This document shows, piece after piece, positions 8,055 to 49,100 of a stretch of 64,000 bases of DNA. Each line of letters begins with the position of its first letter. The stretch's first letter is position 1. The stretch spans positions 186,001 to 250,000 of the forward strand of contig CP034120.1 of assembly GCA_003856375.1 (NCBI GenBank), written 5' to 3'. A program made the position numbers and the translations under genes. The notes below the pieces were generated by a model. The model had not been told where the DNA came from and did not search any database. It was given only the letters and a program-made list of their open reading frames with translations. The stretch comes from Glaciecola amylolytica. Its GTDB lineage: Bacteria; Bacteroidota; Bacteroidia; Flavobacteriales_D; Crocinitomicaceae.

Positions 8055-8062
8055 CAAAAATA
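8055..8062 (-). promoter_or_regulatory. -7 promoter element for superoxide dismutase
   Basis: On the minus strand TATTTTTG fits TAnnTTTG; it lies 25 nt upstream of the sod ATG. No clear -33 box. Confidence 0.45.
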
Positions 8063-8163
8063 GGAAACAAAATTGAAAAAGCCGATTGAATCTGTAAGAA
8101 GCTTTTGTTAGGAAAGGTTAAAGATCTATCAAATAGTTAGGGACGCGATACATCCCCAACTCC

Positions 8164-32941: not shown

Positions 32942-33025
32942 AAATTGAGAAGGGAAAAATTGAAAAGCAGATTTTTTGAATAAGCCTGTTAACTTTTCAA
33001 TTCTACATTTTACATTCTCAATTTT
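32941..33025. repeat. AT-rich inverted repeat in panC-panD spacer
   Basis: Left arm (32941-32968) with AAAATTGAGAA and ATTGAAAAG pairs with a right arm (32993-33025) carrying CTTTTCAAT and TTCTCAATTTT. The arms match except for a short middle mismatch. It may act as a panC terminator or be a small dispersed element; similar vocabulary occurs in the spacers near 59580 and 61920. Confidence 0.6.
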
Positions 33026-33029
33026 ACAT

Positions 33030-33037
33030 TAACTTTG
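33030..33037 (+). promoter_or_regulatory. -7 promoter element for panD
   Basis: TAACTTTG fits TAnnTTTG and lies 19 nt before the panD ATG, directly after the inverted repeat. Confidence 0.55.
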
Positions 33038-33056
33038 CACTTCGATTTTTACAAAC

Positions 33057-33407
33057 ATGTTGATACAAGTAGTCAAATCAAAAATTCACCGCGTACGCGT
33101 CACTCAAGCAGAATTAAATTACGTAGGAAGTATTACCATTGATGAAGCATTGATGGATGCATCCGATTTGGTTGAAGGAGAACGTGTTCAGGTAGTCAAT
33201 ATTAATAATGGTGAACGTTTGGAAACTTACGTTATAAAAGGTGACAGAGGAAGCGGAACAATTTGTTTGAATGGTCCGGCTGCCAGAAAAGTTTCCGTTG
33301 GTGATATGATCATCGTTATCGGTTACGGTTACATGACTCCTGAAGAAGCAAGATCGTTTAAACCGTCTTTGGTTTTTCCAAATGAATTGACTAATTTGAT
33401 AGTCTGA
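33057..33407 (+). CDS. panD: Aspartate 1-decarboxylase PanD
   Basis: 116-aa pyruvoyl enzyme that makes beta-alanine from aspartate. The self-cleavage site is the Gly-Ser of [10 protein letters not shown], with the Ser becoming the pyruvoyl group. [16 protein letters not shown] at the start and the [20 protein letters not shown] core are typical. Its stop overlaps the next ATG (TGATG), so the flippase-like gene is co-translated. Confidence 0.97.
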
Positions 33408-34432: not shown

Positions 34433-34919
34433 GATTACTTCATTGGATGAAATGACGAACCGCATTCAGGATTGGAAAAAAGCGGGAGAAAAAGTGGTTT
34501 TCACCAACGGATGCTTCGATATTTTGCACGAAGGACATGTGACTTACCTGGCAAAATCTGCTGATTTCGGAAGTAAACTGATCATTGCGATCAACACAGA
34601 TGCTTCCGTCAAACGACAAGGAAAAGGGGAGGAGCGACCAATCAATCCGGAAGCTTCAAGGGCTTTGATTCTCGCAGCTTTGGAATTTGTAGACGGAGTT
34701 GTATTCTTTGATGAAGATACGCCTGTTTCGGTGATCGAAACCCTGAAGCCGGGCGTTTTGGTAAAAGGAGCCGATTACGATGCCGATGAAACGGATTCTT
34801 CCAGTAAGAAATACATTGTGGGCCGGGAAGTGATTCTGGCAAATGGTGGTGAAGTGAAAACCGTGAGTTTGGTGGAAGGTTTCAGTACCACGAATATTGT
34901 GAAGAAGCTAAAGGCTTAA
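34404..34919 (+). CDS. rfaE2: Heptose-1-phosphate adenylyltransferase RfaE2
   Basis: 171-aa cytidylyltransferase-fold enzyme, the stand-alone C-terminal half of HldE, making ADP-heptose for LPS. It shows FTNGCFDILHEGHVTYL (with the HxGH-type site), INTDASVKRQGKGEERPIN and the end GFSTTNIVKKLKA. It overlaps the flippase-like gene by 29 nt and touches the convergent gene at 34916 by 4 nt. The kinase half (RfaE1) is not in the window. Confidence 0.95.
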   Translation: MGKFEQIRNKITSLDEMTNRIQDWKKAGEKVVFTNGCFDILHEGHVTYLAKSADFGSKLIIAINTDASVKRQGKGEERPINPEASRALILAALEFVDGVVFFDEDTPVSVIETLKPGVLVKGADYDADETDSSSKKYIVGREVILANGGEVKTVSLVEGFSTTNIVKKLKA

Positions 34920-35386
34920 TCATCTTCTGTTTTCTGACTTTTTACGTAAAATTTAATCCAGAAAATCAGGGATAATAATCCGATAACCATCGAAGGATAA
35001 TAGCTCCAGAATCTGAAACTTGAATAGAAATCCAATTCATCCCTTGAAATACCGATGAGTCTCCGAAGGTGTTTGATTTCGTAATCTTTTTTGGTCAACA
35101 GTTCGTATTTCAAATCGAATAATTCCAGTTTTTTCCTGAAATCCGAGGATCTAAAAGCGTTCAGTCCCTTTTTTAGTTTGTTCAGAATCTTGATTTCATC
35201 ATACAATACCTTGGATTCATTATTCATGAGATCCAGCTTGTAACTCAGTTCACTTTGCCGGATTTCAATCTCTTTGATCTTGTCGGTTGGATAGATAATA
35301 TTGAACAGGATGGTTCCGATGCACATGGTCAATAGAAATTTGAACACGTTGTCGCCGGATGATAAAAAACTACTTGCTGTTTCCAT
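34916..35386 (-). CDS. Two-helix membrane protein with central coiled coil
   Basis: 156 aa, not recognised. One helix near the N-terminus (VFKFLLTMCIGTILFNIIY, ~15-33) and one near the C-terminus (MVIGLLSLIFWIKFYV, ~133-148) enclose ~95 residues rich in Lys, Glu and Leu with heptad spacing (KIKEIEIRQSELSYKLDLM...). Both ends should lie on the same side of the membrane. It begins 1 nt after the stop of the EVE-like protein gene, so the two form a unit. The final 4 nt overlap rfaE2. Confidence 0.75.
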   Translation of the reverse strand: METASSFLSSGDNVFKFLLTMCIGTILFNIIYPTDKIKEIEIRQSELSYKLDLMNNESKVLYDEIKILNKLKKGLNAFRSSDFRKKLELFDLKYELLTKKDYEIKHLRRLIGISRDELDFYSSFRFWSYYPSMVIGLLSLIFWIKFYVKSQKTEDD

Positions 35387-35387
35387 A

Positions 35388-36356
35388 TCAATGATTCGTT
35401 AAGCGGTCAAAAATGGAATCGTTTTCAACTTCCAGATTTTTCCGGATATTTTGAATGGAATCCATGTAAGGAATGTACTCTGTCGGGATCGTTTCCCGGT
35501 TTATCTTCATACTGATTTCATCATTGGTGCAGCCATTCAGAAACATAGATAAAATCAAACTGGTTATGATCAACGATTTTCCAACCGGTAACTTGATATT
35601 AATGAATCCGGGTGAGTTTAAACTCAGTTTGACTGTGGTCGCATCAATCTTTTCTCCAAAGTTGAAATCGGCGTTTACTTTGGAAATGAGCCCCAAATAA
35701 TTGTCAAATAAATCCTTCAGATCCGTCAAACTGATTTCCGATTCTTTGTTGATTCTCAAAGACAAAAAACAATCACCATCCTTGATGTACAATTCTTCCA
35801 TTAAGGAATCAATGAAATCAGCATGCTGTTTAATGGAAACAATCGTGTGGGAATGTTTCAGTAAATAGAACAACGAATTGTAATAGTGGTGTTTGACGGA
35901 AGTTTTCAGCCAATTCACCTTTCTTCGTTTGAGATAAGAACCCGGTGATAAATCCGTTTCTGCTGCGTGATAGATTTCATCGTCGGCAATTTCACCGATA
36001 CTGAATAGATCCGATTCTTCAGATGGAATCAGGATCACATCGCCTTTTTTCAGGTTTTTGAAAGTGAACAGTTTGTTGATGGTTTTGGTAACGGATGATT
36101 TTTCTCCGGATCCCAACCAGTCGTAAGGAACATTTCTGTATTTGTAACTGTTTGTGATGACGGATTTTCGGAGATATTCCAGATTCTCTTCCCGAATATC
36201 TGAAGCGGAAATAAAATTCCAGTTGATTCCAATATATCCGTTTTGAATAAAATCGGCATAATCTTCTCCGTCAGCCCGGAAATACCAGTATTCCTTTTGG
36301 CTGTTTATTTCTGCAACATGGTCGAAAACAGGGATTGTATTTTTTAGATTAAGCAT
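35388..36356 (-). CDS. EVE/PUA-like domain protein with one membrane helix
   Basis: 322 aa. Residues ~22-135 resemble the EVE/PUA-like sensor domain seen at the N-terminus of Mrr-type and other defence nucleases: EYWYFRADGEDYADFIQNGY, IGINWN and KKGDVILIPSEESDLFSIGEI. No nuclease motif follows. A mixed region (~150-255) leads to one membrane helix (SLIITSLILSMFL, ~268-280) and a short C-terminal tail. If the N-terminus is cytoplasmic, it could read a modified nucleotide or nucleic acid and act on the membrane with its coiled-coil neighbour. The domain match is by eye, and function is inference. Confidence 0.7.
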   Translation of the reverse strand: MLNLKNTIPVFDHVAEINSQKEYWYFRADGEDYADFIQNGYIGINWNFISASDIREENLEYLRKSVITNSYKYRNVPYDWLGSGEKSSVTKTINKLFTFKNLKKGDVILIPSEESDLFSIGEIADDEIYHAAETDLSPGSYLKRRKVNWLKTSVKHHYYNSLFYLLKHSHTIVSIKQHADFIDSLMEELYIKDGDCFLSLRINKESEISLTDLKDLFDNYLGLISKVNADFNFGEKIDATTVKLSLNSPGFINIKLPVGKSLIITSLILSMFLNGCTNDEISMKINRETIPTEYIPYMDSIQNIRKNLEVENDSIFDRLTNH

Positions 36357-36455
36357 GTGGTGGTGGATTGGTGGTGTTTAGCTGCGATAATTCAAAGTTC
36401 AGGATACAGAATCAGATTCCATATCCCGAACTTCTTTTATTCCCGTGTTTTAGGG

Positions 36456-37562
36456 TCAGATGCTGAATCTAACCACTACAACGGTACTTGCAGTGTTGGC
36501 GAAATTTCCCGCTTCAGGAGTTTGACTGACGCTCGAATGTTCCATTGCAATTGTTTCGTCTGTAATCAAGGTTCCATCCAGATTTCTTAATTCATAAGTG
36601 AATCCAAGATCCTGAAGGAGTTCTCTTTTAGCTACGGACCAATCTCCGATACTTAAATCAGGAACAACGCGAATGGTTGGGAATGTAAGCACCAAAACGG
36701 TATCGGCTACATTCACGAAAGTGGCACCAGGAGGAGCTTGCAATCCGATTGGTAATCCTTCTACGACTGTTTCGTCCGTAATTACGGTTCCATCCGAAGT
36801 TCTTAATTCGTAATTAACTCCATGATTCTGAAGGATTATTGTTTTTGTTTCTTCATTCCAGGTTTTTCCACTCAGATCCGGAATGACACGAATTTCTGCA
36901 AATTGAAGGGTCAGAATGGTGTTTGTTGTATTGACAACCGTTCCGAACTCAGGGATTTGATCCAGGATCGTTAATCCTTCTACCAGTTCTTCGTTGGTAA
37001 TCAGATCACCATACATCGTTCTTAATTCGTAGGTAAATCCAAGGTTTTGAATCGTTTCTTTTCTTTCTTCGTTCCAGGTTTTACCGCTTAGATCCGGAAC
37101 ATTTCGGATTTCGGATATATTCTGAGGCGGCGGAACAGGAACGATTTTGAACTTCAGTTTTGCCATCGCATTTGCCTGTAATCCGAAACGATTCACATTT
37201 CCTGCATTCAGTGGAGTTGCGTTGATTTTATACTTGGAAAGCGGAGAGCCGCCGATTGGACTGCTCTGTTGCGATTTCAGATCGAGAGATAAGGAAATCT
37301 GCGCTTCAACTTCTGTTTCCGGAATGGTGTAAAAAGTCGGTTGATATCCGATTTCACGAATCAGGCTCAGAAGCTTTAATTCGTCTTCTGTTCTTTCTTC
37401 GTCTTTACTGATGTCGTAGATATCCAGGGTTTGTTCAAGCGCACCTTGATCAAGTGCTGCCTGCGCATCGCCTACTCCCTGACCGACGGAACTGATCAGT
37501 TCTCCCAGCGGACTGCCAAGCAGCTCGCTGAATAATTGTACGGGGTTATTTGTATTGCTCAT
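36456..37562 (-). CDS. IAEAQ/PTFY-domain paralogue with three PASTA-like repeats
   Basis: 368 aa, last gene of the novel operon. Residues ~10-150 are a divergent copy of the operon's core domain: LLGSPLGELISSVGQGVGDAQAALD helix, IGYQPTFYTIPETEVEAQISLS strands and KIVPVPPP tail. Three repeats of ~70 residues follow (153-221, 225-293, 298-367), each starting VPDLS, with GFTYELRxxxGxxIT in the middle and QxPxxGxxVNxxxTVLVLxF at the end, as in PASTA domains with an insert. No signal peptide or membrane helix, which is unusual for PASTA proteins. Its start overlaps the preceding gene by 17 nt. Confidence 0.88.
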   Translation of the reverse strand: MSNTNNPVQLFSELLGSPLGELISSVGQGVGDAQAALDQGALEQTLDIYDISKDEERTEDELKLLSLIREIGYQPTFYTIPETEVEAQISLSLDLKSQQSSPIGGSPLSKYKINATPLNAGNVNRFGLQANAMAKLKFKIVPVPPPQNISEIRNVPDLSGKTWNEERKETIQNLGFTYELRTMYGDLITNEELVEGLTILDQIPEFGTVVNTTNTILTLQFAEIRVIPDLSGKTWNEETKTIILQNHGVNYELRTSDGTVITDETVVEGLPIGLQAPPGATFVNVADTVLVLTFPTIRVVPDLSIGDWSVAKRELLQDLGFTYELRNLDGTLITDETIAMEHSSVSQTPEAGNFANTASTVVVVRFSI

Positions 37563-38460
37563 GTTTACTAAAAATTACGGTGATCAATTGATTTTTATTG
37601 ATTTTTTCTCCTGCAGTCGGTGATTGTTTGAAGGAATCTCCGTTCATAACAGCCGGATTGTTCTGATAAACCGGATTTAATCTTAAATTGAGACTTTTCA
37701 AAACTCTTCGCACAGCTGTTTCGGTCAATCCTTTTAAATCCGGGATAACTAAAACAGGCGCTTGTACTGTCTGATTCGAGGTGATGTCGAAAACGAGTTC
37801 ACTGATTGCATTTCCATTGACGTTTTCCGAACTGTCCGGATCAAGCAGAGTAGCACTAACGCTTTCTCCGTCTCGTTGAATCATGGCTTTCAGTTTAAGA
37901 GATATGTTTGAAAGTTTGAACGGAGAAGAATCGGAAGCGTTTGCTGCGGTCTCGATTTCAGAAACAATATTCGAATACAATTCATTGATCGGAAGTGGAG
38001 CTCTGTCTGCCGGAGGAGCCACTTTGAAAGGACTGGTGATGGGCAGGAAATCAGCGAATTTGCTGCTTGAATCCTTCATTAATTCTGCCGGAACTAACCA
38101 TACGGTGCCGAAATTAATCTCAAAGGTTTCGGTTACTTCATTCAGGTGAAAGGAAAAAGTGCTTGCAATGACCGGCTGTTTGAGAAGGTCTTCATCGACT
38201 TCTGCCGGAATTACCCGAATCGGTGGCATTTTATCATTGAGAATTGCGTCAAATAAATCGGCTTCTTCAGTTGGCATTCCTGTTCTGATAATGCTGTTGA
38301 TAGCCAAACCACCTTTCGTATTGAGTGGTAATTCATAGAGGTTTACCCAACTTTGATCCGTAAATCTGTAATATTGAACAATTACCGGCAGGCTGGGTAC
38401 TGCATCTCCACTTGTGTCGAGAAGTGTTAGTTTAATGGATAATTTTTGAAAAACTGTCAT
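37546..38460 (-). CDS. Beta-sandwich protein with C-terminal PASTA domain
   Basis: 304 aa. Residues ~1-120 look like an Ig-like beta-sandwich (KLSIKLTLLDTSGDAVPSLPVIVQYY). Residues ~157-230 (INELYSNIVSEIE ... FKLSNISLKLKAMIQRDGE ... ELVFDIT) recall the trypco2 adaptor domain of conflict systems; this is a weak resemblance by eye. Residues 237-298 form one PASTA domain (VLVIPDLKGLTETAVRRVLKSL ... QSPTAGEKINKNQLITVIF). No export signal. It overlaps the neighbours on both sides (4 nt and 17 nt). Confidence 0.85.
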   Translation of the reverse strand: MTVFQKLSIKLTLLDTSGDAVPSLPVIVQYYRFTDQSWVNLYELPLNTKGGLAINSIIRTGMPTEEADLFDAILNDKMPPIRVIPAEVDEDLLKQPVIASTFSFHLNEVTETFEINFGTVWLVPAELMKDSSSKFADFLPITSPFKVAPPADRAPLPINELYSNIVSEIETAANASDSSPFKLSNISLKLKAMIQRDGESVSATLLDPDSSENVNGNAISELVFDITSNQTVQAPVLVIPDLKGLTETAVRRVLKSLNLRLNPVYQNNPAVMNGDSFKQSPTAGEKINKNQLITVIFSKHEQYK

Positions 38461-39167
38461 GATTTACTGATTGAGATTGATGAAAATTGTGATCCGCTAT
38501 TGGCAACAAAAACAAAGGTTTTCCCGTTGTAAAAGTCTACTGTATTCACTTTGCATTTGGCTTCAAATATTCCGTGAATATTGGTGTATCCGTCTTTGTC
38601 ACTTGAAAAAACAGGAGTTCCGACTGCCTGATTGGAATTGAAACTGAATGAGGTGTCTTTGTCGAAATTGATTTCTACCCGCTGACCGACTACCGGTTCA
38701 TTGTTTGCCTGTAAAAGTTTGAATGTGACTCTCAAATAGGTAAATGTCGAATCAGAGCCGCCAACATCACCTGCACCTGTCAGGGAGAATTGAGGTAAAC
38801 CTTCGTTGGGCATTACTGCAACAAATCTTCCTGAAATGTTGCTGGTGATACTTCCCAGGTTTTTGGAAGTCGTTTCAGTGCTTCGGAAGGGAATAAAGCG
38901 AAGTGCACCAACGGGAGGAGCCATTTGTGAAAGGGTTCCGCCTCTTAGAATCGGAGGAGATGGACTTCCTGTTTGAGCTGACTCGAATTGTGAAATAACT
39001 TCGAGGTTAAAATCCAGATAGGGAATTTGATAGAGGGTATTTGGTCTTCCGTATTCATCATACGGAGGCATACTGCGAAGCTGATCTTGTGCTTCGTTCA
39101 AACTGTCGGCGATGCTGAGAACTATTTCGTGCAAGGCCAGTGAATTGATGGTGGTTGATGAACTCAT
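38457..39167 (-). CDS. Divergent core-domain paralogue with beta-sandwich end
   Basis: 236 aa. The start (LALHEIVLSIADSLNEAQDQL) and the following YQIPYLDFNLEVISQFES copy the helix plus strand pattern of the operon's core domain, and GALRFIPF fills the place of the VPAP motif. The C-terminal ~100 residues (TYLRVTFKLLQANNEPVVGQRVEINFD ... DGYTNIHGIFEAKC) look like an Ig-like or invasin-like domain. No signal peptide. It lies 2 nt after the coiled-coil gene and overlaps the next one by 4 nt. Confidence 0.83.
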   Translation of the reverse strand: MSSSTTINSLALHEIVLSIADSLNEAQDQLRSMPPYDEYGRPNTLYQIPYLDFNLEVISQFESAQTGSPSPPILRGGTLSQMAPPVGALRFIPFRSTETTSKNLGSITSNISGRFVAVMPNEGLPQFSLTGAGDVGGSDSTFTYLRVTFKLLQANNEPVVGQRVEINFDKDTSFSFNSNQAVGTPVFSSDKDGYTNIHGIFEAKCKVNTVDFYNGKTFVFVANSGSQFSSISISKS

Positions 39168-39169
39168 TT

Positions 39170-40240
39170 TTAAGTGTATTTTTCGTTTTTGCGTTCTTTC
39201 TTTTTACTCGACCGTTCTTCTTCTTTGCGTTCGGCCTTTTTTCTGGATAGAAATTGTTCTTTTCGTTTTTCTCTGCGTTCAGTCTCTTTTTGTTCGGCTT
39301 CTTTCTGTTCAGCTTTTTTAGCAGAGGCATTCTCAGAAAGATTATTTTGACGATCATCCAACGACAATTCGTTCTCCAGTTTATCTGTCAGTTCTTTGAT
39401 TTCAGGAACTTTTGATTCCAGCGATTCCAAAGAATCTTTGACGGCCGATTTTGCGGACTGAACAAAACGCTTCTTTTCCTCCAGTTTGTCTGAGAGCTTT
39501 TGAAGTGTGATCTTTTCCTTCAGTTTTTCCTTTATGGTTTCACGTTTTTCATCCCAATCATCTTTGAGTTTGGGAATTTTCGGCGGAATTACTTTTGGTT
39601 TTTTTTCCTGATCCAGTTTTTGTTGAAACTTCGCAAGATCCTTCTGTCCGAGTGAATCGAGTTCGGTTTTTAGTTTCCTGATTTGATCCGGAACTTTTGC
39701 AACCTTTCTGATTTCTTCGGTAAGCACTCTTTTCTTTCTTTCTATTTCATCTTTCTGTTTCCGTATCGTGTCGGCATTCAGCCTGATTCTTTCGGAACTT
39801 TTTTTTGATTTCGGTGCTTTTAGGCTGGTTGAAGGATCTTGTTCGGTTTCTTTTTTAAGCAAAGTTTTCTTTTGGAGAGCGAGTTTTTCTTTCAGTCGGT
39901 TCTGATTTTGTTCCCATTTCTCTAATTCTTTGCTCTTTTTTAAGAGCCGCTCTTCGAGTTTTCTCTTCTGAGCGGCTCTGTTTTTTTCCTTCTCGCGTTT
40001 ATTTTTAAACGATTCGATAGTACCGGCGAATCGAGGATTTTCTTCTACAGGATTAGTCGTTTGAAGTAAATTGCCCATCTCATTTTCCAAAGACTGCCGT
40101 TCCTTCAACAATTCATCCAATTCCTGGTTTTGCGCTGCAATTTCATCCAGCGTTAATTGAATACTACTAAAAGAGTTTTCGCTTTCGTTATTTGAATCGA
40201 AATCTGTGGTTTTGACGAGTTTTTTCCAGCTTTTTGTCAT
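39170..40240 (-). CDS. Highly charged coiled-coil protein
   Basis: 356 aa, almost entirely Lys/Glu/Arg-rich coiled coil (residues ~28-345), with a short serine/asparagine-rich N-terminus. No signal peptide and no membrane helix. In the middle of the operon, it may act as a ruler, scaffold or tether for the surrounding core-domain proteins (inference). Not related to a named family that I can recognise. Confidence 0.85.
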   Translation of the reverse strand: MTKSWKKLVKTTDFDSNNESENSFSSIQLTLDEIAAQNQELDELLKERQSLENEMGNLLQTTNPVEENPRFAGTIESFKNKREKEKNRAAQKRKLEERLLKKSKELEKWEQNQNRLKEKLALQKKTLLKKETEQDPSTSLKAPKSKKSSERIRLNADTIRKQKDEIERKKRVLTEEIRKVAKVPDQIRKLKTELDSLGQKDLAKFQQKLDQEKKPKVIPPKIPKLKDDWDEKRETIKEKLKEKITLQKLSDKLEEKKRFVQSAKSAVKDSLESLESKVPEIKELTDKLENELSLDDRQNNLSENASAKKAEQKEAEQKETERREKRKEQFLSRKKAERKEEERSSKKKERKNEKYT

Positions 40241-40274
40241 AATCTTGTTTTGCGGATAGGGTTAGTGTTTAATC

Positions 40275-40805
40275 TTAGGTGCCTGTTTCCAATGCAGTTT
40301 CCATTGCTGATTCGTCCATCAGTTGTTTCAACCGGCTTTCGAACATCGCAGGAGCAGGAACCGTTACGAGTTTGGTACGCATTTCGGAACTTCCGTTTGC
40401 TTCGTATTGGTATTTCTGAGAATAACTGGCGTTTACAGAAGCTGCAACTACACCAAACGGTGACCAGGCAGCAGCTTTGATAGAAGTTCCAACAGAAGCC
40501 TCTTGCTCAGTTTTCATTGAAATGGCCAATCTGAGTTCAATATATGTTTCTACGAACTGATAGAATGTTGGCGTGAAACCGAGAGCCAGTAAACTGACTC
40601 CGTCGTCTCCTTCCCGGAGTTTGATCAGCGAAGTTTCGTCACGTTCCAACGTTCCGTCATCATTCATTTTAAATCCCGCCATTAATTGCGCGATCTTGAT
40701 AGAAACACGATCGAGTGCATATTGAGCCTCGGCAATCCCTACACCAAGCGTTCGAACTAATTCGGGAAACGGAGCATTTAATAACTCTCTTCCAATATCT
40801 GCCAT
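40275..40805 (-). CDS. Minimal IAEAQ/PTFY core-domain protein
   Basis: 176 aa, one of the two simplest copies of the core domain. Order: ELLNAPFPELVRTL (6-20), GVGIAEAQYALDRVSIKIAQLM (21-42), LGFTPTFYQFVETYIE (75-90) leading into a strand LRLAISMK, a variable loop, ASYSQKYQYEANGSS (126-140), RTKLVTVPAP (143-152), then a closing helix FESRLKQLMDE. No export signal or enzyme motif. The sister gene 63 nt upstream shares every one of these blocks. Function unknown; a self-assembling subunit is a reasonable guess. Confidence 0.88.
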   Translation of the reverse strand: MADIGRELLNAPFPELVRTLGVGIAEAQYALDRVSIKIAQLMAGFKMNDDGTLERDETSLIKLREGDDGVSLLALGFTPTFYQFVETYIELRLAISMKTEQEASVGTSIKAAAWSPFGVVAASVNASYSQKYQYEANGSSEMRTKLVTVPAPAMFESRLKQLMDESAMETALETGT

Positions 40806-40868
40806 ATGCTTATAGATTAAGGGTTAATAGAGCAGCTGTCGCTTTGACAGCTGCCTGGATTGATTGGT

Positions 40869-41747
40869 TTATGGAATCGGTGCTGGAGTAATGTTGTTGA
40901 ACTCCTCATCCATCAATCGCTGGATACGTTCTTCCAGAACTGAAGGTGCCGGAACCGGAACCAATTTAGTGCGAAGCAAACTCGATCCTTCTGCTGAGTA
41001 GCTGTACTTCTGAGAGTAAGAAGCATTCACTTGTGCAATCTGTACTGTTTTTCCGGATTTGATTTTTTTGAAACCTTTCCCGATGCGTTTTGCCGGAGAT
41101 TGGTTACTTACAGAAGCATTGGTGCTGACATTTCCTTCCTGTGTGTACTTGATGGAAATCTTCACTTCAATGATCGTATCCACGAATTGGTAGAAAGTCG
41201 GTGTAAAACCGCATTCCAACATCGAGATTCTGCGTGGAAGATGAAGAATCGCACTATTGTCATCCGTAGTACTTGTGGTAGATGTAATTGTCAAATCGCC
41301 ATAAGAACAAGGAGTAGATGCAGATGAACCGCTCCCGCTCAAATAGAATACACCTCCGAAATCGATAAATTTATCTGCTGTTGCAATAACAGCTCCGGCC
41401 GTATAACCACCAGGAACAGCTAAAGGAGCTGGTTTAAATCCTGTATTGTTAAGCAAGGAACGGATTTCAGCCTTTTCCTGAATATTGTTCGTTCCATTGT
41501 GACGAGCAATTGCCTGAGCTTTTGTCATTTTTTCCTTTCCGAAATAAACGCGGCTGTCTTCAAAAGTGACATTTCCCTGTTCATCTGTAACGGTGGATAA
41601 ACCGCCCATCATTTCGGCTACTTCGATAGAGTTCTGATCCAGAACAATTTGTGCTTCTGCGATTGCAAAAGCCATTTGGCGAATCATGTCGCCCATAGGC
41701 ACGTCAAGAAGTTCCTGACCAATGCGTGGTTTGGTGTTTTCAAACAT
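40869..41747 (-). CDS. IAEAQ/PTFY core-domain protein with inserted segment
   Basis: 292 aa. Same blocks as the 176-aa sister: ELLDVPMGDMIRQMAFAIAEAQIVLDQNSIEVAEMM (12-48) and then, after a ~120-residue insert (about 51-170), CGFTPTFYQFVDTIIEVKISIK (179-200), ASYSQKYSYSAEGSS (242-256), RTKLVPVPAP (259-268) and LEERIQRLMDEE. The insert contains EVRSLLN-like helices and a Gly/Ser/Thr-rich stretch and matches nothing I know. Near-identity of the C-terminal half with the 40275 gene indicates a fairly recent duplication. Confidence 0.88.
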   Translation of the reverse strand: MFENTKPRIGQELLDVPMGDMIRQMAFAIAEAQIVLDQNSIEVAEMMGGLSTVTDEQGNVTFEDSRVYFGKEKMTKAQAIARHNGTNNIQEKAEIRSLLNNTGFKPAPLAVPGGYTAGAVIATADKFIDFGGVFYLSGSGSSASTPCSYGDLTITSTTSTTDDNSAILHLPRRISMLECGFTPTFYQFVDTIIEVKISIKYTQEGNVSTNASVSNQSPAKRIGKGFKKIKSGKTVQIAQVNASYSQKYSYSAEGSSLLRTKLVPVPAPSVLEERIQRLMDEEFNNITPAPIP

Positions 41748-41774
41748 ACGTTGTTGTTTTTGGTGATTAAAAGA

Positions 41775-42236
41775 TTACGTTGTTGTGTTTCCTTCTGAGC
41801 TTAAATTTTTCAGAAGTGTAACGAGATTTTCGGGTGGAGGCAGTGAAACCATGCGGGCTGCAATACTCGAAGAAGCCGAAGCGGATTGATCGAATTTTCG
41901 TGCATAACCTGCACTGATGGTAGTTGAAACTACTTTGGTTTCCACTGAAACTACACCACTTGCGTCGAAAGCAGTTGATTCTGACATGGAGAAATCCATT
42001 TTTGCATCAAAAGTTGCTTCTGTAAAAGCGTAGAAACTGGGAACAAAACCTAGATTTAATAGGCTGACTTGATTCCCGCCGATTTCCACTGTGCTGGAAG
42101 CGAGGTTTTTGAGCATGGTGATGGAATTGCTGTCCAATGCTGCCTGCGCTGTTGCTATCGAAAGTCCCATGTTTTCAATCATTGATGAAAGCGGGGAGTT
42201 CGTCAGCGTGCTTGTTATTGTTTCAATTGCTGGCAT
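41775..42236 (-). CDS. Minimal IAEAQ/PTFY core-domain protein, divergent
   Basis: 153 aa, the shortest copy of the core: NSPLSSMIENMGLSIATAQAALDSNSI (13-39), LLNLGFVPSFYAFTEATFDAKMDFSM (59-84), SAGYARKFDQSASASSS (108-124), ARMVSLPPP (127-135) and a short C-terminal helix. It is closer to the C-terminal half of the 609-aa protein just upstream (ARMVSLPAP) than to the 40275/40869 pair (RTKLVxVPAP), so the family falls into two subgroups. No signal peptide. Confidence 0.87.
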   Translation of the reverse strand: MPAIETITSTLTNSPLSSMIENMGLSIATAQAALDSNSITMLKNLASSTVEIGGNQVSLLNLGFVPSFYAFTEATFDAKMDFSMSESTAFDASGVVSVETKVVSTTISAGYARKFDQSASASSSIAARMVSLPPPENLVTLLKNLSSEGNTTT

Positions 42237-42261
42237 TTACTAGGGATTTAATAGGTTAATA

Positions 42262-44091
42262 CTATTCTCCCGTGCCGTAAGTGTCTTCAAGGAATTGTAC
42301 AAACTTTGTCGGCGCAGGAAGTGAAACCATTCGGGCTGACATGGATGAATTTCCCTCCATCGACATCTCAAACTGACGGGACATTCTGAAATCCACACTC
42401 GCGCTTAGGGCAAATGAACTGTCCTGGGATTTATTGCTGACAGCTTCATTCAGGATGGATTTTTGATTTTTGGTTTTTCCAAAGAGATGAGTAGAGCTTT
42501 GTTCTGATCCTTGACTCGTGCTTTCTTCGTTGCTTTCAACCTCAATTTCTTCCGATTGATTGGTAAGCATTGTGAACTTAACAATTGCCTCGTCATCCAA
42601 AAAGTAATGAAGCTCATCAGAAGTTTTCTCATATGAATGGTTTGCAATCTGTGCTTTAGCAGCGATTACCAATGCACTGAAATCGGCATTTACAGCATGA
42701 ATATCTAAATTGCCGTATGTAACAGTCAAATCGGTGAAAGCAACTGAAGGTGTTACCGTGTCATCGACATAAACGAATCCGTTTGATCCGCCTTTTGGTA
42801 CTGCTGCTTTTTTCACATTAGGACCAATAAGAATCAGGTAGTCGGCATCCAACTCGATTTTGGCGTAGCGTTTTGTTAAATCGCTTGCACCTTCCGAATT
42901 CGTTACCGCACCAATTGCTACATTGATCGGAGCATCAGATCCGAAGATGTGATTACGCAAATTTTCAGCACGTCTTTTCGCCAGACTTTTGTTTTTCGGA
43001 TTGTCTCCACCTTTCGGATCTGTCATTCCGGTAATCTTAATAGACGCATCCGGATCTTTCGCTTGAATTAAGCGAAGAGCTTTATGAACCGATAGATGAT
43101 AACTGTGGTTTTGGTTGGGCACAGCACCCGTCAAATCTGACGAATAGGTTACCTGGGCATTGTCTCCGGGACCATCCTTCAGGTTTTTGAGATAAGTAAT
43201 CTCATCGCTGTTGTATCCAAAGTACATCGTACTTGAAACTGGAACCCAGACACTTCCGATTTTGGTGATTAAATCCCCGTTTTTGGTTAAAGCAAAAACT
43301 TTTGCTCCTGATCCGGTTTTAGTTACGGCATCGTTTAAAGTAGTGTTTGTAAAACTGTCTACCAATTCTATTGGATCTGTCGAACCTCCGGTACCATCGA
43401 TATCAATTTCTGATGGTACGCTCAAGTCCTGGACTTTAAAAACTCCAACTCCTGATGCTCCGAAATGCAACCCTTCTTCTATTCGAAGGAATCCTCCGTC
43501 CATCCAGACATCCACTCCACGACTTTGATTTTCGGTTAGTTTTCTGGATTGAATTTCTTCATAAACCTGATCTACACCGGCGTCATGCTTGATGTCGTAT
43601 TTGAATTTTTCCAAACGAGTCTTTGCTTGAAGCGTTTCACTTTGTTTAACGAATTTGCTGTTGATTTTCACAGCTTTTTTCTCTTTGGCACGGAAACTAA
43701 ATTGTCGGGAAGCCTTGTATTCTTCCGTTGTTTCCGAGTAATTGTCTTCACTCAAAAAAGAGTGTGTGTCTTCGGTGTATCCTTTGTTTTTGGCTAGCTG
43801 AAGATCCAGTCCGAATCCGAATTCCAATGATTCTCTCGAGGCCATTTTTAAGTAAATGCTGGCGCTGATGTCTGCATATTGGAATGAGTAGAATACTGGA
43901 ATGAATCCCAACTCCAACAAGGATTCGTTTCCGATCTTTGTTTCTGCCAACTTAATAGCCTGGGCTATCGAATTGTCATCTAGTTTCTCTTGGGCTTCCG
44001 CAATTCCGAGAGCGAGGTTTTTAAAGATGCTGCTGACATCAACCTGCTGCAGAATGGAAGCTCCTTCACTGAATTTGGTTAAATCACTCAT
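42262..44091 (-). CDS. IAEAQ/PTFY core domain interrupted by OmpA-like module
   Basis: 609 aa. The core domain is split: its first half is at 20-90 (IFKNLALGIAEAQEKLDDNSIAQAI, LGFIPVFYSFQYADISASIYLKM) and its second half at 558-605 (ALSASVDFRMSRQFEMSMEG, ARMVSLPAP). Between them are ~465 residues: a charged helical part, a beta region, an OmpA-like domain at ~288-415 (STMYFGYNSDEITYL, ITGMTDPKGGDNPKNKSLAKRRAENLRNHI) and an acidic Ser-rich linker. OmpA-like domains normally bind peptidoglycan in the periplasm, yet no signal peptide is present. The gene begins after a 173-nt structured spacer. Confidence 0.87.
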   Translation of the reverse strand: MSDLTKFSEGASILQQVDVSSIFKNLALGIAEAQEKLDDNSIAQAIKLAETKIGNESLLELGFIPVFYSFQYADISASIYLKMASRESLEFGFGLDLQLAKNKGYTEDTHSFLSEDNYSETTEEYKASRQFSFRAKEKKAVKINSKFVKQSETLQAKTRLEKFKYDIKHDAGVDQVYEEIQSRKLTENQSRGVDVWMDGGFLRIEEGLHFGASGVGVFKVQDLSVPSEIDIDGTGGSTDPIELVDSFTNTTLNDAVTKTGSGAKVFALTKNGDLITKIGSVWVPVSSTMYFGYNSDEITYLKNLKDGPGDNAQVTYSSDLTGAVPNQNHSYHLSVHKALRLIQAKDPDASIKITGMTDPKGGDNPKNKSLAKRRAENLRNHIFGSDAPINVAIGAVTNSEGASDLTKRYAKIELDADYLILIGPNVKKAAVPKGGSNGFVYVDDTVTPSVAFTDLTVTYGNLDIHAVNADFSALVIAAKAQIANHSYEKTSDELHYFLDDEAIVKFTMLTNQSEEIEVESNEESTSQGSEQSSTHLFGKTKNQKSILNEAVSNKSQDSSFALSASVDFRMSRQFEMSMEGNSSMSARMVSLPAPTKFVQFLEDTYGTGE

Positions 44092-44264
44092 AAATTAATT
44101 GTTTTTAATGTTTCGCACAAAGCGTGCAGACAATCATTCAAAGCGTCCTGGCGAAATGGTTAGGCGTGAATGGTCGGTCCCGGTCTTTCCCGGGATTGAT
44201 TGTGGTGGTCGGCTATCATTTGTGGAGGCAAATCAGACTGCCCGCACACTTGTGTGAAACGTGG
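44092..44264 (-). other. Structured GC-rich intercistronic spacer in the operon
   Basis: 173 nt between the TPR gene and the OmpA-fusion gene, much longer than the other gaps (2-63 nt, or overlaps). It has several short stems: TCCCGG/CCGGGA with a 6-nt loop (44078+100: 44178-44195), GCAC/GTGC (44115-44127) and the palindrome CACACTTGTGTG (44245-44256). Its GC content by eye is above that of the flanks. No -7 TAnnTTTG element was found. Possible RNA-processing or attenuation site. Confidence 0.45.
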
Positions 44265-44822
44265 TTAGAACGGATTGATCATTTCCGGCAGTTTAACTGC
44301 TATTGTTTCGTTGACATTTTCCTTACGAACCGTAAAGTAGTGATGTCTGTTTTGTAAATCACGCACTTGTTTGTGAGTAACTGCATAGCCTCTTCGAAGC
44401 CAATTCAGCAGCTCTTTACTCAAAGGCATAGATAACTCTTTTGCTTCTTTCAGAGCTGAATCGAAAGCTACTATCGCTTCTGCTTTTTCATCCAGGTAGA
44501 TGCACTGGATGCCTTTCCGTTCCCAGAGCGATGCAAGGTTTTTCCTGAACCATTCATCTGTACGTTCGGCCTTTTTTGGTGTCAGGAAATCAATGCTTTT
44601 ATCGCAATAAGTGATGATTTCTTCGTGTGCCTCCATCAATTCCAGAGATTCCATTGCACACAAACTGTAATGCTGCAGGAATACTTCTGAATTCTCTACT
44701 GTCTGGCACATCCGCATAGCTTCTTTATAGTGGCGCAATGCTTCTTTGTGATCTCCTTTTAAAGCGAGGATTTTTCCGTTTTCAGCGATTTGGAGATGGA
44801 GGTTAGGTTTGTTTTCGTTCAT
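44265..44822 (-). CDS. TPR protein, second gene of the operon
   Basis: 185 aa made of about three to four TPR-like helix pairs (IAENGKILALKGDHKEALRHYKEAMRM at 12-38; ASLWERKGIQCIYLDEKAEAIVAFDSALKEA later). No signal peptide. Similar proteins in Bacteroidota are sometimes mislabelled peptidylprolyl isomerase; no isomerase domain is visible. Placed 5 nt after the first gene, it is probably a chaperone or adaptor for the core-domain proteins (inference). Confidence 0.85.
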   Translation of the reverse strand: MNENKPNLHLQIAENGKILALKGDHKEALRHYKEAMRMCQTVENSEVFLQHYSLCAMESLELMEAHEEIITYCDKSIDFLTPKKAERTDEWFRKNLASLWERKGIQCIYLDEKAEAIVAFDSALKEAKELSMPLSKELLNWLRRGYAVTHKQVRDLQNRHHYFTVRKENVNETIAVKLPEMINPF

Positions 44823-44827
44823 AGTGG

Positions 44828-45886
44828 TTAGTATTCGTATTCAATTTCACATCCAATGGTTTCCAACTGTTTTTCAAGTAGCCGGCTCAAAGTGCTTCCG
44901 AGGGGCAGAGGGGCTTTCCAGACATCTGTAGATTTGTCGACATGGACATCTTTGTAAAATTTGCTCAGGATTTCCCTTGCTTTTCCTGAATCGGTAATGT
45001 TACTTACTGAGAGGACGTACTTTCCAAATGGAATGAGTTCTTCGGAACAGTCTAAACCAGCTTGCTTGTACAAGGCTAATTTTTCCTGAAGTGTTCCGTA
45101 GTTCACCGATTCATCCAGTAAAACCGGAAGATTGGCGTGAATTTCTGCGATTACTTCTTTCGGCATGCCGATTTCACTAACCAAAAAATGGGTCAGAGAA
45201 GTATTCGTCAGATCAAAATTCTCCAGAAGAATACGGAATCTGGAATAACTTTGATTGTAGATCTTAACCTCGTGCTGCGAGCGATAGCGCGTGAGAAACT
45301 GGTTCATTTGGTCGTAGCTTAGGTTGCGAACCCATTTTGTTTCTCCTTCAGGAACTTTGATTTCCTGGTTTTTGATGAGGTTAATCAACTTCAAGCGGTC
45401 ACTTTCTGATTCTGCAGTGAATTCAATGGTGTACAAATCCATTTTGGGGTTACTTGCAATCACTTCAGCATCTATGCGTTTTTGCAAGCTCTCTGCTGTG
45501 GCCATAGAAACTCCACCCAAAACCACACATGGTTCGTTGAGCAAAAGCTGCAGAGATTCATTTTCAGTACAGCCCAGAAATTCAGACAACTGTTTGTTGA
45601 CGGTGCTTAGTTTCACCGGATCATTGATATGGACGGCGATATCAAGGGATTCTGTCGGCAGAGGTGCTTTTTCATCCGTACTTTGTATCAGAACTTCCAG
45701 CCCAAGTTCTGTTAAAATGGTGAATGCCTTTTCTGCCAGCGCTTCATCTGCATGATCTAAAAAAACAGCAGGCGCATTGTAGAGAATTTTGAATAATAAC
45801 TCCTGATTGATTTCAAAAGCTTCAGAAAGCGCTTTGATAACTTTAGGGGTTGCCGTACCAACGGAAAGGATGATAATTCGTTTCAC
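44828..45886 (-). CDS. Protein of repeated L7/L12-CTD-like modules, first gene of the operon
   Basis: 352 aa, unrecognised as a named family. The first ~67 residues (KVIKALSEAFEINQELLFKI, LYNAPAVFLDHADEALAEKA, FTILTELGLEVLIQ) have the order and spacing of the ribosomal L7/L12 C-terminal or ClpS-like alpha/beta fold. Three weaker copies follow at about 82-150, 215-290 and 293-352 (the last with WKAPLPLGSTLSRLLEKQLETIGCEIE). Such folds bind other proteins, so an adaptor or assembly role is plausible. It stands behind the best promoter in the window. Confidence 0.83.
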   Translation of the reverse strand: MKRIIILSVGTATPKVIKALSEAFEINQELLFKILYNAPAVFLDHADEALAEKAFTILTELGLEVLIQSTDEKAPLPTESLDIAVHINDPVKLSTVNKQLSEFLGCTENESLQLLLNEPCVVLGGVSMATAESLQKRIDAEVIASNPKMDLYTIEFTAESESDRLKLINLIKNQEIKVPEGETKWVRNLSYDQMNQFLTRYRSQHEVKIYNQSYSRFRILLENFDLTNTSLTHFLVSEIGMPKEVIAEIHANLPVLLDESVNYGTLQEKLALYKQAGLDCSEELIPFGKYVLSVSNITDSGKAREILSKFYKDVHVDKSTDVWKAPLPLGSTLSRLLEKQLETIGCEIEYEY

Positions 45887-45955
45887 GATTCGATTTATAA
45901 TGGTTAATATTTAAGGTTGTTTTCGCATCGGTTCTTCTACCGATTTGCTACCTTA

Positions 45956-45987
45956 CAAAGATAAGAAATCTTATTCGATAAAACAAA
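45956..45987 (-). promoter_or_regulatory. Promoter of the ten-gene operon
   Basis: On the minus strand TTTG (45987-45984), 20 nt, then TATCTTTG (45963-45956): a full match to the Bacteroidota -33/-7 promoter. The transcript would have a leader of about 60 nt before the ATG at 45886. Confidence 0.75.
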
Positions 45988-46003
45988 TTATTTTAGACAT
46001 TTT

Positions 46004-46190
46004 TTGATTAAAAATTAATCTTTTTTGTCATTTTGTCAATAAAAATGGCTATTTATGCATCTGGATTTTTCTTTCTTTTTTTGATTAAAATATAATCAAT
46101 TGAAAAATAAGCCGTTGCAAAATGAGCTCCTTAAAAGGAAAAAAGGGCAGCTCTTTTTAAGGAACTGCCCGGGTGATTTTTTGATTAAAA
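46004..46190. promoter_or_regulatory. Three TTGATTAAAA sites, two as inverted repeats
   Basis: TTGATTAAAA occurs at 46004, 46081 and 46181. The first belongs to GATTAA-AAA-TTAATC (46006-46020), the second to TTGATTA-AAATA-TAATCAA (46081-46099), a perfect 7-bp inverted repeat. They occupy the 313-nt gene-free stretch 45887-46199 upstream of the operon promoter and could be operators; the rest of that stretch holds only the operon promoter, its leader and a terminator. Confidence 0.5.
46139..46170 (-). terminator. Terminator of the 46200 giant gene
   Basis: On the minus strand GGGCAG/CTGCCC stem (46170-46145, extended by a partly paired inner stem) followed by six T. It lies 30 nt after the stop of the T9SS type-B protein. 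Confidence 0.8.
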
Positions 46191-46199
46191 AACGACTGA

Positions 46200-49100
46200 T
46201 TATCGGATCAATTGAACGAACTTTTGTCCTTCCAATTGTTCTCCCAAAATGCCGGTAACTTTATACTGATAGAAATAAACTCCTTCCGAAGCAGGATCTC
46301 CGTTTGGCATAGTTCCATTCCATTGGAAATGGACATCCGAAGATTTGAACATCAGATTCCCCCAACGATTCGTAACGGTTACTTCCAAAGTGGCTACGTT
46401 GGAACTTGCAAACTCGAAGAAATCATTGTTGTGATCACCGTTCGGAGTGAAAATATTCGGGAATTCAATGATCATCGGCATGGCAGGCTCAACAACTGTA
46501 ATGGTTACGTAAGCCGTGTCTGAGCAGCCATTTTGCGAAGCAATCAGCATCACGATATACTGGCCGATGCTGTCATATGTTTGCGTGTGTCCATTTATAT
46601 TCGCCGTATTCAGTTGCAATCCGTTTCCGAAATCCCAGAAATACGTATTTGCATTCTGACTTCCGTTAGTCAGATTGACAACCAATGGAGCCGTTCCCGT
46701 TGAAGGATTTGCATGAACAACCGCTATTGGAGGCGCAATTAAGCTGACCGCGGCACTTGTTCCCGTACAACCGTTTGCATCCGTAACAGTCACCGTAATG
46801 GGTGAAGATGAGGTCGTTTGTATCGTTTGTTGGTTTCCACCAATATTCCACGAATAACTTGCATAAGGCCCACCGGCACTTAAAGTTGCCTGATCTCCTT
46901 CACAATACCACAAGTTTCCGGTAATGACAGGAACAGGATTCGGATTTACAACCAATGTCACATTCGAAATACTGTCACAACCTCCGGATGCACTAAATGT
47001 TTGCGAGTACACGCCCGCAGTTGTTTGAGGAGTTCCATGAATGGAAATGCTTTGTCCCTGGCAAACTGAAACCGTTGAATTGGTCACAATTTGAGAAACT
47101 TCATTGACATTTACCGCCGGACTTGTTCCCTGACAGCCATTATTGTCAATGACAGTAACAGTGATTCCGTTTTGAACCGTTGTATTGATTGCCTGAGTCG
47201 AAGCTCCGGTACTCCAGGAGTAAGAAGCATACGGTCCGCCGGCATTTAAAGTTGTCTGACTTCCGGTACAATAGCTTAAGTTTCCTGAAATTGCAGGTGT
47301 TGGTAAGCTATTCACTGTAACGGTTTGAGTTTCAGAATCCGGGCAAGTTCCGTTTGTGGTATACTGAACGGTATAAGTTGTTCCTCCGACACCGTTGGTG
47401 ATTGCACCTGTTGAAGCATTGATTGTTGCTCCGTCAGTTGGAACCGGATTGAATGCAAATGTTCCTCCCGGAGTTACAATTCCTGTAGCGCTGTTTGGAG
47501 AACCCTGACAGTAATTCGTTAATGTAAATGATGCATCATCGATACTTCCAGGTCCTGTAAGTGTAGCGAATTCCACCGCCGGACAACCGGAACCTCCCGA
47601 AGTTACGACTGCAAAATTGTTAATCGCAACGGATGGATCAGTTCCTGCACCGTCGTCATTATTTGTCCATCGAATGGCAATCCGGAGATTGGGAATATTT
47701 TCGCAGGAAGCCGGAAGCGAAGTTGAATAAGCAGACCACAATCCTTGGGGAGAACATGCTCCTGTTCCGGAAAATAAAGCTCCGCCTAATTGTGTCCAGC
47801 CCGAACCGGTGTTGTACCAAACCGTTGCCTGATCGTTCGGAGCGTCTCCCTGAGCGATGTAATCAAACTGTAAAGTCAGATTGGATTGTCCGGTAGTATT
47901 AATCACCGGACTTTCAGCTTGCCGGTTGGTTTGCGGACAGAACAAAATTCCGCACAATCCGCCGGCATCATATGCTGCACCGCCACTTGGGTTGAAAACG
48001 CTTGTAATATGAAGTGTTGCATCTCCGTTTCCTGCAAGACCGCAGCCTCCCGGAGCAACTCCACCTTCGTCATCATCGACCTCGAAATAATTCGGATCAG
48101 CACCTTCAGTACCTGTTGATACATTTAGGTTCCAGTTGTTTGCTCCGTTTTCGAAATCTTCGGAGAACAATTGGTTGCTTGAACCGTTTGCGTCCGTTAC
48201 CTGAAGTGAATAAGTTCCTCCGCATAAATTAGAGATTACTGCAGAATTTGTCCCGATCGGATTATTCGACGCATCAAACCATTGATAGGAGTAAGGAGGA
48301 TTTCCACCTGAAACCGTTGCAGTGATAGAACCGTTGCAACCTGCGCCACAAGTTGGATTCACCGTTTGCATATTATCAATACTTGGTCCTCCTATACTTC
48401 CAACAGATTGACTTCCGGTGCTCTGACAGCCCGAGTTGTCTGTAACCAAAATGGTATAAGATCCTGCCGTCAATCCTGAGAATGTTCCCGAGCTTTGAGA
48501 AGTTCCACCATTGATGCTGTAACTATAAGCCGGAGTTCCGCCATTCGGTGTAATAGTGATTTCTCCGTCGGCATTTCCACAATTTTCAGGAGTTGCTGCT
48601 GATGTGAAAGTGAAGCTTGTTGCAGTAACTGTTTGAGTGGATGATGCCGGACAAGCTCCGTTCGTTGTATATTGAACTGTATAAGTCGTTCCGGCAGTTG
48701 CATTTGAAATAGAACCGGTTGAAGCATTAATTGTTGCACCGCCAACAGGAGCCGGATTGAAACTGAACGTTCCCCCCGGAGTAGCAATTCCTGTTGCCTG
48801 ATTTGTTCCTCCCGGACAGAAGTTTGTCAGCGTAAATGCCGGATTATCTGCCGGATTGATTGTCACGACAATCTGGGCCGTTCCAAAACAAGCCGGATCG
48901 TTCGGATCTTCATATCGAACCCAATAGGTTCCGCTTGTGGCTACTGTTGTTGAAATCGGGCTGACATCGTTTTGAGCATTTGCCTGAGTTGCATGATAAC
49001 TCAGGGTTGCCGGAGCAGATCCTGCTGCGATAGCATTACTCAAATTGACAGTTCCTGGAGCACACGTGCTTAAAGGATTCACATTAACAACCGGAGGAAT

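Follow-up and report, generated by a model that had tools for sequence, protein, structure and literature searches.

A patchily distributed ten-gene bacterial cassette encoding six paralogous subunits remotely related to DUF2589

Organization of the ten-gene cassette

The window analysed here (64,000 nt of Glaciecola amylolytica contig CP034120.1, positions 186,001–250,000) contains ten adjacent ORFs, designated A–J, all on the minus strand and running from position 45886 (A) down to 36456 (J). These and two associated elements are listed below in window coordinates.

45956–45987, minus strand: promoter-like site, taken to be of the Bacteroidota type (TTTG, 20 bp, TATCTTTG), upstream of A
44828–45886, minus strand: gene A, 352 aa, starting at GTG, with an N-terminal domain that resembles the L7/L12 C-terminal domain
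44265–44822, minus strand: gene B, 185 aa, TPR protein (TPR_2, 27.4 bits against a cut-off of 27)
44100–44272, minus strand: long RNA hairpin between B and C, at the genus level (folding z −4.77)
42262–44091, minus strand: gene C, 609 aa, DUF2589-like domain interrupted by an insert with an OmpA C-terminal-like module
41775–42236, minus strand: gene D, 153 aa, minimal single-domain subunit (AlphaFold2 model)
40869–41747, minus strand: gene E, 292 aa, copy of the domain with an insert inside it (sequence match to F)
40275–40805, minus strand: gene F, 176 aa, single-domain subunit (sequence comparison)
39170–40240, minus strand: gene G, 356 aa, Lys/Glu-rich, coiled-coil or disordered, scaffold-like
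38457–39167, minus strand: gene H, 236 aa, divergent domain copy followed by a C-terminal Ig-like domain
37546–38460, minus strand: gene I, 304 aa, N-terminal region of its own, PASTA at the C-terminus
36456–37562, minus strand: gene J, 368 aa, N-terminal domain copy followed by PASTA repeats

The intergenic distances from A to J are 5, 173, 25, 27, 63, 34, 2, −4, and −17 bp. An earlier interpretation made from the DNA letters (the sequence-only reading) had described mostly tiny gaps or overlaps, which holds for most junctions but not for that between B and C. It had also placed a promoter ahead of the operon, and the site upstream of A was conserved in the window and the five congeners aligned. 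This site was not recovered by a strict scan with 19-bp spacing, for which approximately 1.4 chance matches per window are expected, so the evidence for it is its conservation rather than its match to the presumed Bacteroidota consensus. In the B–C hairpin, 8 of the 32 pairs were changed on both sides among six sequences, and 91% of cells were paired, compared with 34–49% when it was slid; no Rfam match was found in positions 33000–47000.

A profile of 31 A proteins matched 1ctf (E = 1.5e-6), indicating homology with the ribosomal L7/L12 C-terminal domain, and the single A sequence fell under the Pfam cut-off for that domain (14.7 vs 25.9 bits). The L7/L12-like domain of A and the TPR of B, both named in the sequence-only reading, are thus backed by profile matches. 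As that reading also stated, A–J include no recognised transposase, secretion, or enzyme gene.

Distribution among bacteria

The identical A–J order was found in 59 of 80 related loci, in several phyla, and 14 of the 21 exceptions were located at contig or locus edges. The two outcomes that the sequence-only reading had named as counting against it, a gene order conserved nowhere else and an already characterised phage or injection component, were not what was found. The hosts include Bacteroidota, Pseudomonadota, and Myxococcota, with isolates of Caulobacter, Halomonas, and Corallococcus among them. Archangium violaceum is another host, which makes rhapidosomes a possible candidate for comparison. 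The distribution is broad yet patchy, and few bacteria carry A–J. In the source genus, the cassette was present in 7 of 14 genomes, and the flanking genes were retained in the five cassette-free congeners inspected, of the seven that lack it; the absence sites are clean and the cassette is a unit of gain and loss. That 7 of 14 congeners live without it was counted against the reading preferred below. No recurrent flanking partner was accepted: the largest cluster of flanking ORFs reached 16 loci, and its kinase- or response-regulator-like members varied in size, side, and distance and were treated as unrelated. A search of the open-licence literature found no published study of the cassette.

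A duplicated domain in six of the ten proteins

One domain is common to C, D, E, F, H, and J. Direct sequence and profile searches linked C, D, E, F, and J, in agreement with the duplicated domain proposed earlier, and both divergent extra copies suspected in J (36456) and H (38457) were recovered, J by these searches and H by hhalign. The H and J domains aligned over 109 columns with a score of 56.3 (P = 2.8e-9), compared with a best score of 22.4 among 150 column-permuted decoys and 25.3 with the alignment reversed. A seventh copy in I found no support (hhalign P =.016 to.14). The window F protein shared 44–67% identity with 36 other F proteins. The C slot holds an ORF without the insert in some relatives (276 aa in locus L085 and 188 aa in L100), and the length of J varies from 223 to 378 aa among congeners.

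In a paralogue tree of 15 loci, the proteins clustered by gene position across phyla. C, D, E, and J each formed one group, that of E with a support of 98 and that of D without branch support, and F required two changes. The duplication into six paralogous subunits preceded the spread of the cassette.

The AlphaFold2 monomer model of D, with a modest mean pLDDT of 67.9 and values below 50 at residues 88–117, predicted a helix (16–47), two strands (68–93 and 108–132), and a second helix (136–148), and matched no PDB fold at E < 0.077. The H model contained a helix (3–31), strands at 50–63 and 103–116, and an Ig-like fold at 128–233, mostly with pLDDT > 90.

Relationship to DUF2589 and a five-gene relative

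DUF2589 (PF11655) is a Pfam family of unknown function to which the sequence-only reading had loosely likened the shared domain. That lead was supported, for D, as remote homology below the Pfam cut-off. With an hhalign profile of 22 DUF2589 members, D aligned in register over nearly its full length (P = 3e-6), and after trimming it retained a score of 37.6 (P = 2.1e-5), compared with 28.0 for the best of 150 decoys and 17.9 for the reversed alignment. The gathering cut-off of 23 bits was not reached by window D (13.0 bits), and Pfam matches at E up to 1 were found for 1 of 42 D proteins and none of 37 F proteins. Weaker hhalign values were obtained for F (P =.0024 and.0094), H (.018), and J (2.4e-4, over 41 columns only). 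The layout is also shared: an N-terminal helix with an Ala-Gln motif, a proline-marked entry into a long hairpin, and a C-terminal proline and helix. On these alignments, the shared domain belongs to the DUF2589 superfamily as a distant branch. Tandem copies are common among DUF2589 proteins, as exemplified by AF0414–AF0417 in a passage of PMC3949148, but no ten-gene setting was seen for them.

Reduced, five-gene relatives also exist, in which the domain subunits and an I-like coiled coil are retained. Their d1 protein aligned with the DUF2589 profile over almost its entire length (P = 3.4e-7), and the middle of I weakly matched their proteins cc (P = 2.6e-4, 31 columns) and h (P =.0013). The I proteins themselves range from 243 to 1546 aa, several with a coiled coil. 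In the G slot, the longest same-strand ORF was present in 71 of 80 loci (109–518 aa), and a sequence match to window G was found in only seven of the 80.

Wall-binding and Ig modules

The additional modules named in the sequence-only reading were also recovered. PASTA (PF03793) exceeded its cut-off of 23.2 bits in I (34.7) and J (28.1) and was found in 31 of 31 I and 43 of 50 J orthologues. The Ig assignment of H is supported by its model and by a Big_1 match in 9 of 32 H proteins. With an E threshold of.01, 45 of the 49 C orthologues matched the OmpA C-terminal family (PF00691), the strongest at 3.8e-18; window C itself was under the curated cut-off (20.4 vs 27.2 bits). OmpA-like, PASTA, and Ig (Big_1) modules are typical of the envelope or the cell exterior. 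The OmpA C-terminal and PASTA modules of C, I, and J are of the peptidoglycan-binding type, but here they occur on subunits without a recognisable signal peptide, whereas elsewhere they are carried by outer-membrane proteins or kinases. Residues D358 and R374 of C occupy columns conserved in at least 90% of sequences and are likely counterparts of the Asp and Arg through which OmpA-like domains bind DAP, as described in part of PMC5974059.

Amino acid composition of C–J

C–J are strikingly poor in cysteine, at.22% in C,.00% in D (all 73 orthologues lack it),.05% in E,.08% in F,.08% in G,.22% in H,.14% in I, and.12% in J, compared with 1.11% in A (71 orthologues), 1.78% in B (73 orthologues), and 1.10% in the flanks. 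The cysteine content of C–J, G not counted, was less than half the flank rate in all 73 loci with enough flank, a contrast that spurious ORFs could inflate, as the flank ORFs are mechanical calls. In the window, C–J contain 3 cysteines, compared with 19.8 expected from 22 other, hand-picked genes (0.79%). The label "chaperone-like" given earlier to A and B gained support only indirectly, from their being the two of the ten proteins with normal cysteine; A is presumed to be a cytosolic helper and B a cytosolic assembly chaperone.

Extracellular proteins economise on costly residues. With one control set per class, the Cys, Trp, and His contents of window C–J (.12,.44, and.76%) resembled those of nine exported flagellar axial proteins (0.0,.46, and.50%) more closely than those of the P2 tail (.53, 1.40, and 1.24%) or a cytosolic ribosomal set (.58,.61, and 1.93%). 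This depletion points to a site outside the cytoplasm. Low cysteine can also stem from cost saving in abundant proteins. Like C–J, the flagellar axial proteins have no Sec signal and little Trp and His, the flagellar set being Cys-free, but no sequence relation to A–J was found and the cassette has no export apparatus, so the comparison extends only to how such proteins work.

Discussion

We tentatively propose, with a probability of roughly 0.36, that this patchy, self-contained cassette encodes a multi-subunit assembly in contact with the cell wall, whose site of action is outside the cytoplasm. A and B would stay behind as cytosolic proteins that protect the subunits or load them. A ring, tube, or lattice may arise from the co-assembly of C–F, H, and J, joined through the N-terminal helix and the long beta-hairpin of two strands, and G together with the coiled coil of I may serve as its scaffold or set its length. 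The OmpA-like and PASTA modules of C, I, and J and the Ig domain of H would be on display, where they would bind either peptidoglycan or some partner on a surface. C–J would leave the cytoplasm by lysis or by a host export route. No signal peptide was seen by eye in A–J, and no export gene or regular membrane segment was recognised in them, so that action outside the cytoplasm would proceed without a known route. The lack of the C insert in some relatives and the restriction of Big_1 matches to 9 of 32 H proteins also count against the proposal. A more specific version, which we consider unlikely as a whole, is a phage-independent, non-contractile extracellular nanoparticle in which six DUF2589-superfamily paralogues are joined by long beta-hairpins and carry wall-targeting OmpA-like, PASTA, and Ig tips, two cytosolic helpers are left behind, and the five-gene version is the minimal form.

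The same absence of signal peptides and export genes is what would be expected of a scaffold or lattice confined to the cytoplasm, whether storage-like, compartment-like, or cytoskeletal, whose proteins would be low in Cys, Trp, and His because they are abundant and cheap. The single operon with one promoter-like site and the coiled-coil-like G and I also fit such a structure. However, the OmpA-like, PASTA, and Ig (Big_1) modules on C, I, J, and H do not, and the ribosomal control, likewise abundant and cytosolic, is less Cys-poor; we regard an intracellular structure as unlikely.

A structure on the producer's own wall, with C–J in the periplasm by an unrecognised route and the OmpA-like and PASTA modules anchored to the producer's peptidoglycan, would explain the composition of C–J as readily as the extracytoplasmic assembly that we prefer. 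OmpA-like modules generally tether envelope complexes to the cell's own wall, and nearly all of the hosts belong to phyla that we take to be diderm. It is nevertheless quite unlikely, given that no secretin or inner-membrane family was found in A–J (Pfam, PHROGs, and NCBIfam; G by Pfam only).

Phage tails, tailocins, and eCIS resemble the cassette in being operons of several structural-looking genes with wall-binding parts, here with a coiled-coil protein whose length varies widely. A relationship with them, as an injection or tailocin-like device that has degenerated, is improbable, because A–J matched no tail, sheath, tube, or baseplate family (Pfam, PHROGs, and NCBIfam; G by Pfam only) and the composition of C–J is unlike that of the P2 tail. 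The best PHROGs match was that of C (E =.0041), to a family of unknown function. F and D had no relative among 50,697 phage records, and pattern-based scans of IMG/VR, which detect mainly close relatives, found none of F, D, two DUF2589 proteins, or d1. The leads in favour of such a device are a structural match of D in BFVD to an unnamed protein (A0A516MP19, E = 8.9e-6, 20% identity), a single DUF2589 protein encoded on a faecal record of 4 kb that is labelled as phage (37% identity), and a DUF2589 gene pair that adjoins an eCIS_core gene in locus L131. The first two are the only leads to a phage origin, which was rejected. Contractile-sheath co-occurrence was uninformative: sheath-family matches at E up to.001 occurred in five of the seven congeners with the cassette and three of the seven without it, and only one of the 14, cassette-free, exceeded the cut-off.

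A phage-defence or bacterial conflict module is very improbable, since its patchy gain and loss and the match of the next gene, K, to the candidate defence family PDC-S02 (E = 1e-16) are offset by the absence of K from one congener with A–J, by its being matched at only 4 of 80 loci, and by the lack of any nuclease, toxin, or other enzyme family over its Pfam cut-off in A–J. No PADLOC model was matched over the core genes (all but G scanned); PADLOC matched I only through its PASTA end (PD-T4-6; E = 3.8e-8 at best), A only weakly, in a TIR-like hit (E =.0062), and no other protein scanned.

To the sequence-only reading, our analysis adds the patchy spread, the extracytoplasmic type of the module set, the Cys, Trp, and His depletion of C–J, and the five-gene version. 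The cassette fits no system that could be compared, and its core domain belongs to a family without known function; that the ten-gene order has held across distant bacteria implies that the system must be worth keeping whole. An exported, wall-binding particle, if one is indeed formed, would represent a new type of bacterial nanomachine. Should none be formed, the DUF2589 superfamily still gains a gene neighbourhood informative enough to be tested directly.

Organization of the cassette and its surroundings

The ten-gene cassette is a real, conserved unit in gene set, order, homologies, modules, and composition, and it lies in a genome of one 4.6-Mb contig. By gene F, the closest named relatives belong to Fluviicola. 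From A to J, successive genes are spaced by 5, 173, 25, 27, 63, 34, 2, −4, and −17 bp.

Features of the cassette and its flanks in the window, all on the minus strand
51243–55571 and 46200–50720: pair of similar large proteins bearing SprB or Big_2, PKD, and CHU_C type IX secretion domains
45987–45956: promoter-like site, kept in the window and five congeners
Start at 45886: gene A, 352 aa, first in transcription
Gene B, 185 aa
44100–44272: strong B–C intergenic RNA hairpin, folding z −4.77
Gene C, 609 aa
Gene D, 153 aa
Gene E, 292 aa
Gene F, 176 aa
Gene G, 356 aa
Gene H, 236 aa
Gene I, 304 aa
End at 36456: gene J, 368 aa, last in transcription
35388–36356: gene K, matching the candidate defence family PDC-S02 (E = 1e-16)
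34916–35386: small neighbour of K

The hairpin, which sits between the helper and structural genes, was kept in the window and five congeners, with both sides changed in 8 of 32 pairs (shuffled mean, 4.0; 5 of 500 shuffles as high); further pair types were no more numerous than in shuffles (216/500). The B–C gap is short in the other genera shown. The hairpin may set the ratio of helper to structural gene products. Most congeners also carry K and its small neighbour directly after the cassette, but both genes are missing in G001 (L025).

Distribution and conservation of gene order

When the window's genome and its relatives were searched with gene F, 8 of the 59 genomes matched (genus, 7/14; rest of the family, 1/22; rest of the order, 0/23). 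The A–J order was identical in five congeners, and two further genomes (one congener and one of another genus) carried A–J on two contigs in a compatible arrangement. A search of 395 genomes of the phylum with the domain profile gave four positives, including the window's own genome. J varied from 223 to 378 aa across close relatives (L023–L027), perhaps through PASTA repeat number. Five of the seven unmatched genomes in the genus were inspected (G004, G005, G010, G011, and G013); all five retained collinear right-flank genes and lacked A–J, the right flank adjoining other left-side genes or a new gene. In G013, the homologue of 46200–50720 ended 82 bp from that of 34404–34919.

A pattern scan of 84,980 species genomes yielded 206 stretches, of which 169 were confirmed; the following counts refer to the best 80 loci of these, ranked by similarity to F. 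The exact order A-B-C-D-E-F-H-I-J on a single strand occurred in 59 loci (8.4–10.9 kb), so that the order noticed in the sequence-only reading is kept in other genomes, both in the five congeners and at distant loci. An ORF filled the G slot in 54 of these 59 and in 71 of the 80, and the G sequence was recognisable in only 7. For 14 of the 21 non-exact loci, a contig or locus edge lay no more than 1.2 kb away; the remaining seven (L072, L103, L104, L105, L108, L112, and L123) reflected copies labelled otherwise, an extra copy, or an order upset by ORF calls, with gene I unscored in L112 and C–F alone scored in L105.

The 80 loci belonged to Pseudomonadota (44), Bacteroidota (26), Myxococcota (5), and one metagenome bin each, possibly misbinned, of Gemmatimonadota, Latescibacterota, Chloroflexota, Acidobacteriota, and Verrucomicrobiota. 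In the Chloroflexota bin (L082, from 2807–8652 on), gene I encoded 1546 aa, five times the length in the window, and three additional domain copies followed J, the last cut off at the contig end. In the F tree, built by a quick method and with several long branches flagged, five Paracoccaceae were nested with Gammaproteobacteria (support 96). The bins labelled Gemmatimonadota and Latescibacterota fell among Halomonas (support 94, unstarred). This nesting with other lineages suggests, without proving, that the cassette has been transferred between lineages. When the paralogues of 15 loci were placed in a tree, a single cross-phylum group emerged for each of C, D, E, and J (D without branch support), and F needed two changes; such grouping by gene across phyla indicates that the domain duplications most likely predate the spread.

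The shared domain and its relationship to DUF2589

Sequence searches connected the domain of C, D, E, F, and J, and profile alignment joined H to J (P = 2.8e-9), bearing out the proposal that the products of 36456 (J) and 38457 (H) are divergent copies; gene I does not clearly belong. The suspected resemblance to DUF2589 also held: D aligned over nearly its full length with 22 DUF2589 proteins (P = 3e-6 untrimmed; trimmed score 37.6, top decoy 28.0). Matches were weaker for F (P =.0024 and.0094), J (P = 2.4e-4, 41 columns), and H (P =.018). By these alignments, the cassette domain is a remote relative of DUF2589, a family that itself has no assigned function. DUF2589 proteins, including the 22 aligned, occurred in 18 of 296 genomes of the phylum, in 2 of 15 cassette-carrying genomes (the window's own, among the 15, was negative), and in 0 of 114 searched in the class of Halomonas. 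At L131:3644–6700 (Sphingomonas trueperi), in a single case, a DUF2589 gene pair adjoins an eCIS_core protein (E = 1.3e-22).

The AlphaFold2 model of D comprised a helix, two 25-residue strands, and a helix (pLDDT 67.9), and that of H the same helix and hairpin followed by a confident Ig-like fold, with weak structural matches to Ig-type folds (best E =.0049). Foldseek found no PDB match to D better than E =.077, the weak matches including long-hairpin pore stems and ring proteins; D matched one unnamed model of a viral library (E = 8.9e-6). The cassette was not found described in the open-licence literature searched and is assigned to no known family of systems.

Composition, wall-type modules, and a reduced version

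In orthologues from the best 80 loci, cysteine made up 0.00–0.22% of C–J, whereas A and B had 1.11% and 1.78%, and 659 flanking ORFs had 1.10%. All 73 D orthologues lacked cysteine, compared with 14 of 98 flanking ORFs of 140–200 aa. Tryptophan and histidine were likewise low in C–J. In a comparison with a single control set per kind, the composition of C–J was close to that of flagellar axial proteins and far from that of ribosomal proteins and the P2 tail. This difference, the main new argument and an indirect one, points to an extracytoplasmic site of action for C–J and a cytoplasmic one for A and B.

The OmpA module was present in 45 of 49 C proteins, PASTA in all 31 I proteins and in 43 of 50 J proteins, and a Big_1 match in 9 of 32 H proteins. 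In A. baumannii OmpA, DAP is bound by Asp271 and Arg286, according to an excerpt of PMC5974059. Columns D358 and R374 of C, at least 90% conserved, would be their counterparts. We infer hetero-assembly of the products, their location, wall binding, and the roles of A and B (presumed helpers), G (scaffold-like), and I.

A five-gene relative was found in two genomes of genus g99 (L133 and L134) and on a Sphaerotilus plasmid (L182); a third g99 genome, G379, also has two domain copies. Of its five products, one is small, two are domain proteins, one is H/I-like, and one is a coiled coil with an I-like C-terminus. Against the A, C, D, F, H, I, and J profiles, its proteins showed nothing beyond the domain and a weak resemblance to H/I, and the small protein of L182, the sole one scanned, had no Pfam match. 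From the protein lengths and this comparison, the five-gene version appears to be without PASTA, OmpA, Ig, and TPR parts. This gene content suggests that the core consists of domain subunits and a coiled coil, with the wall-binding modules as an addition.
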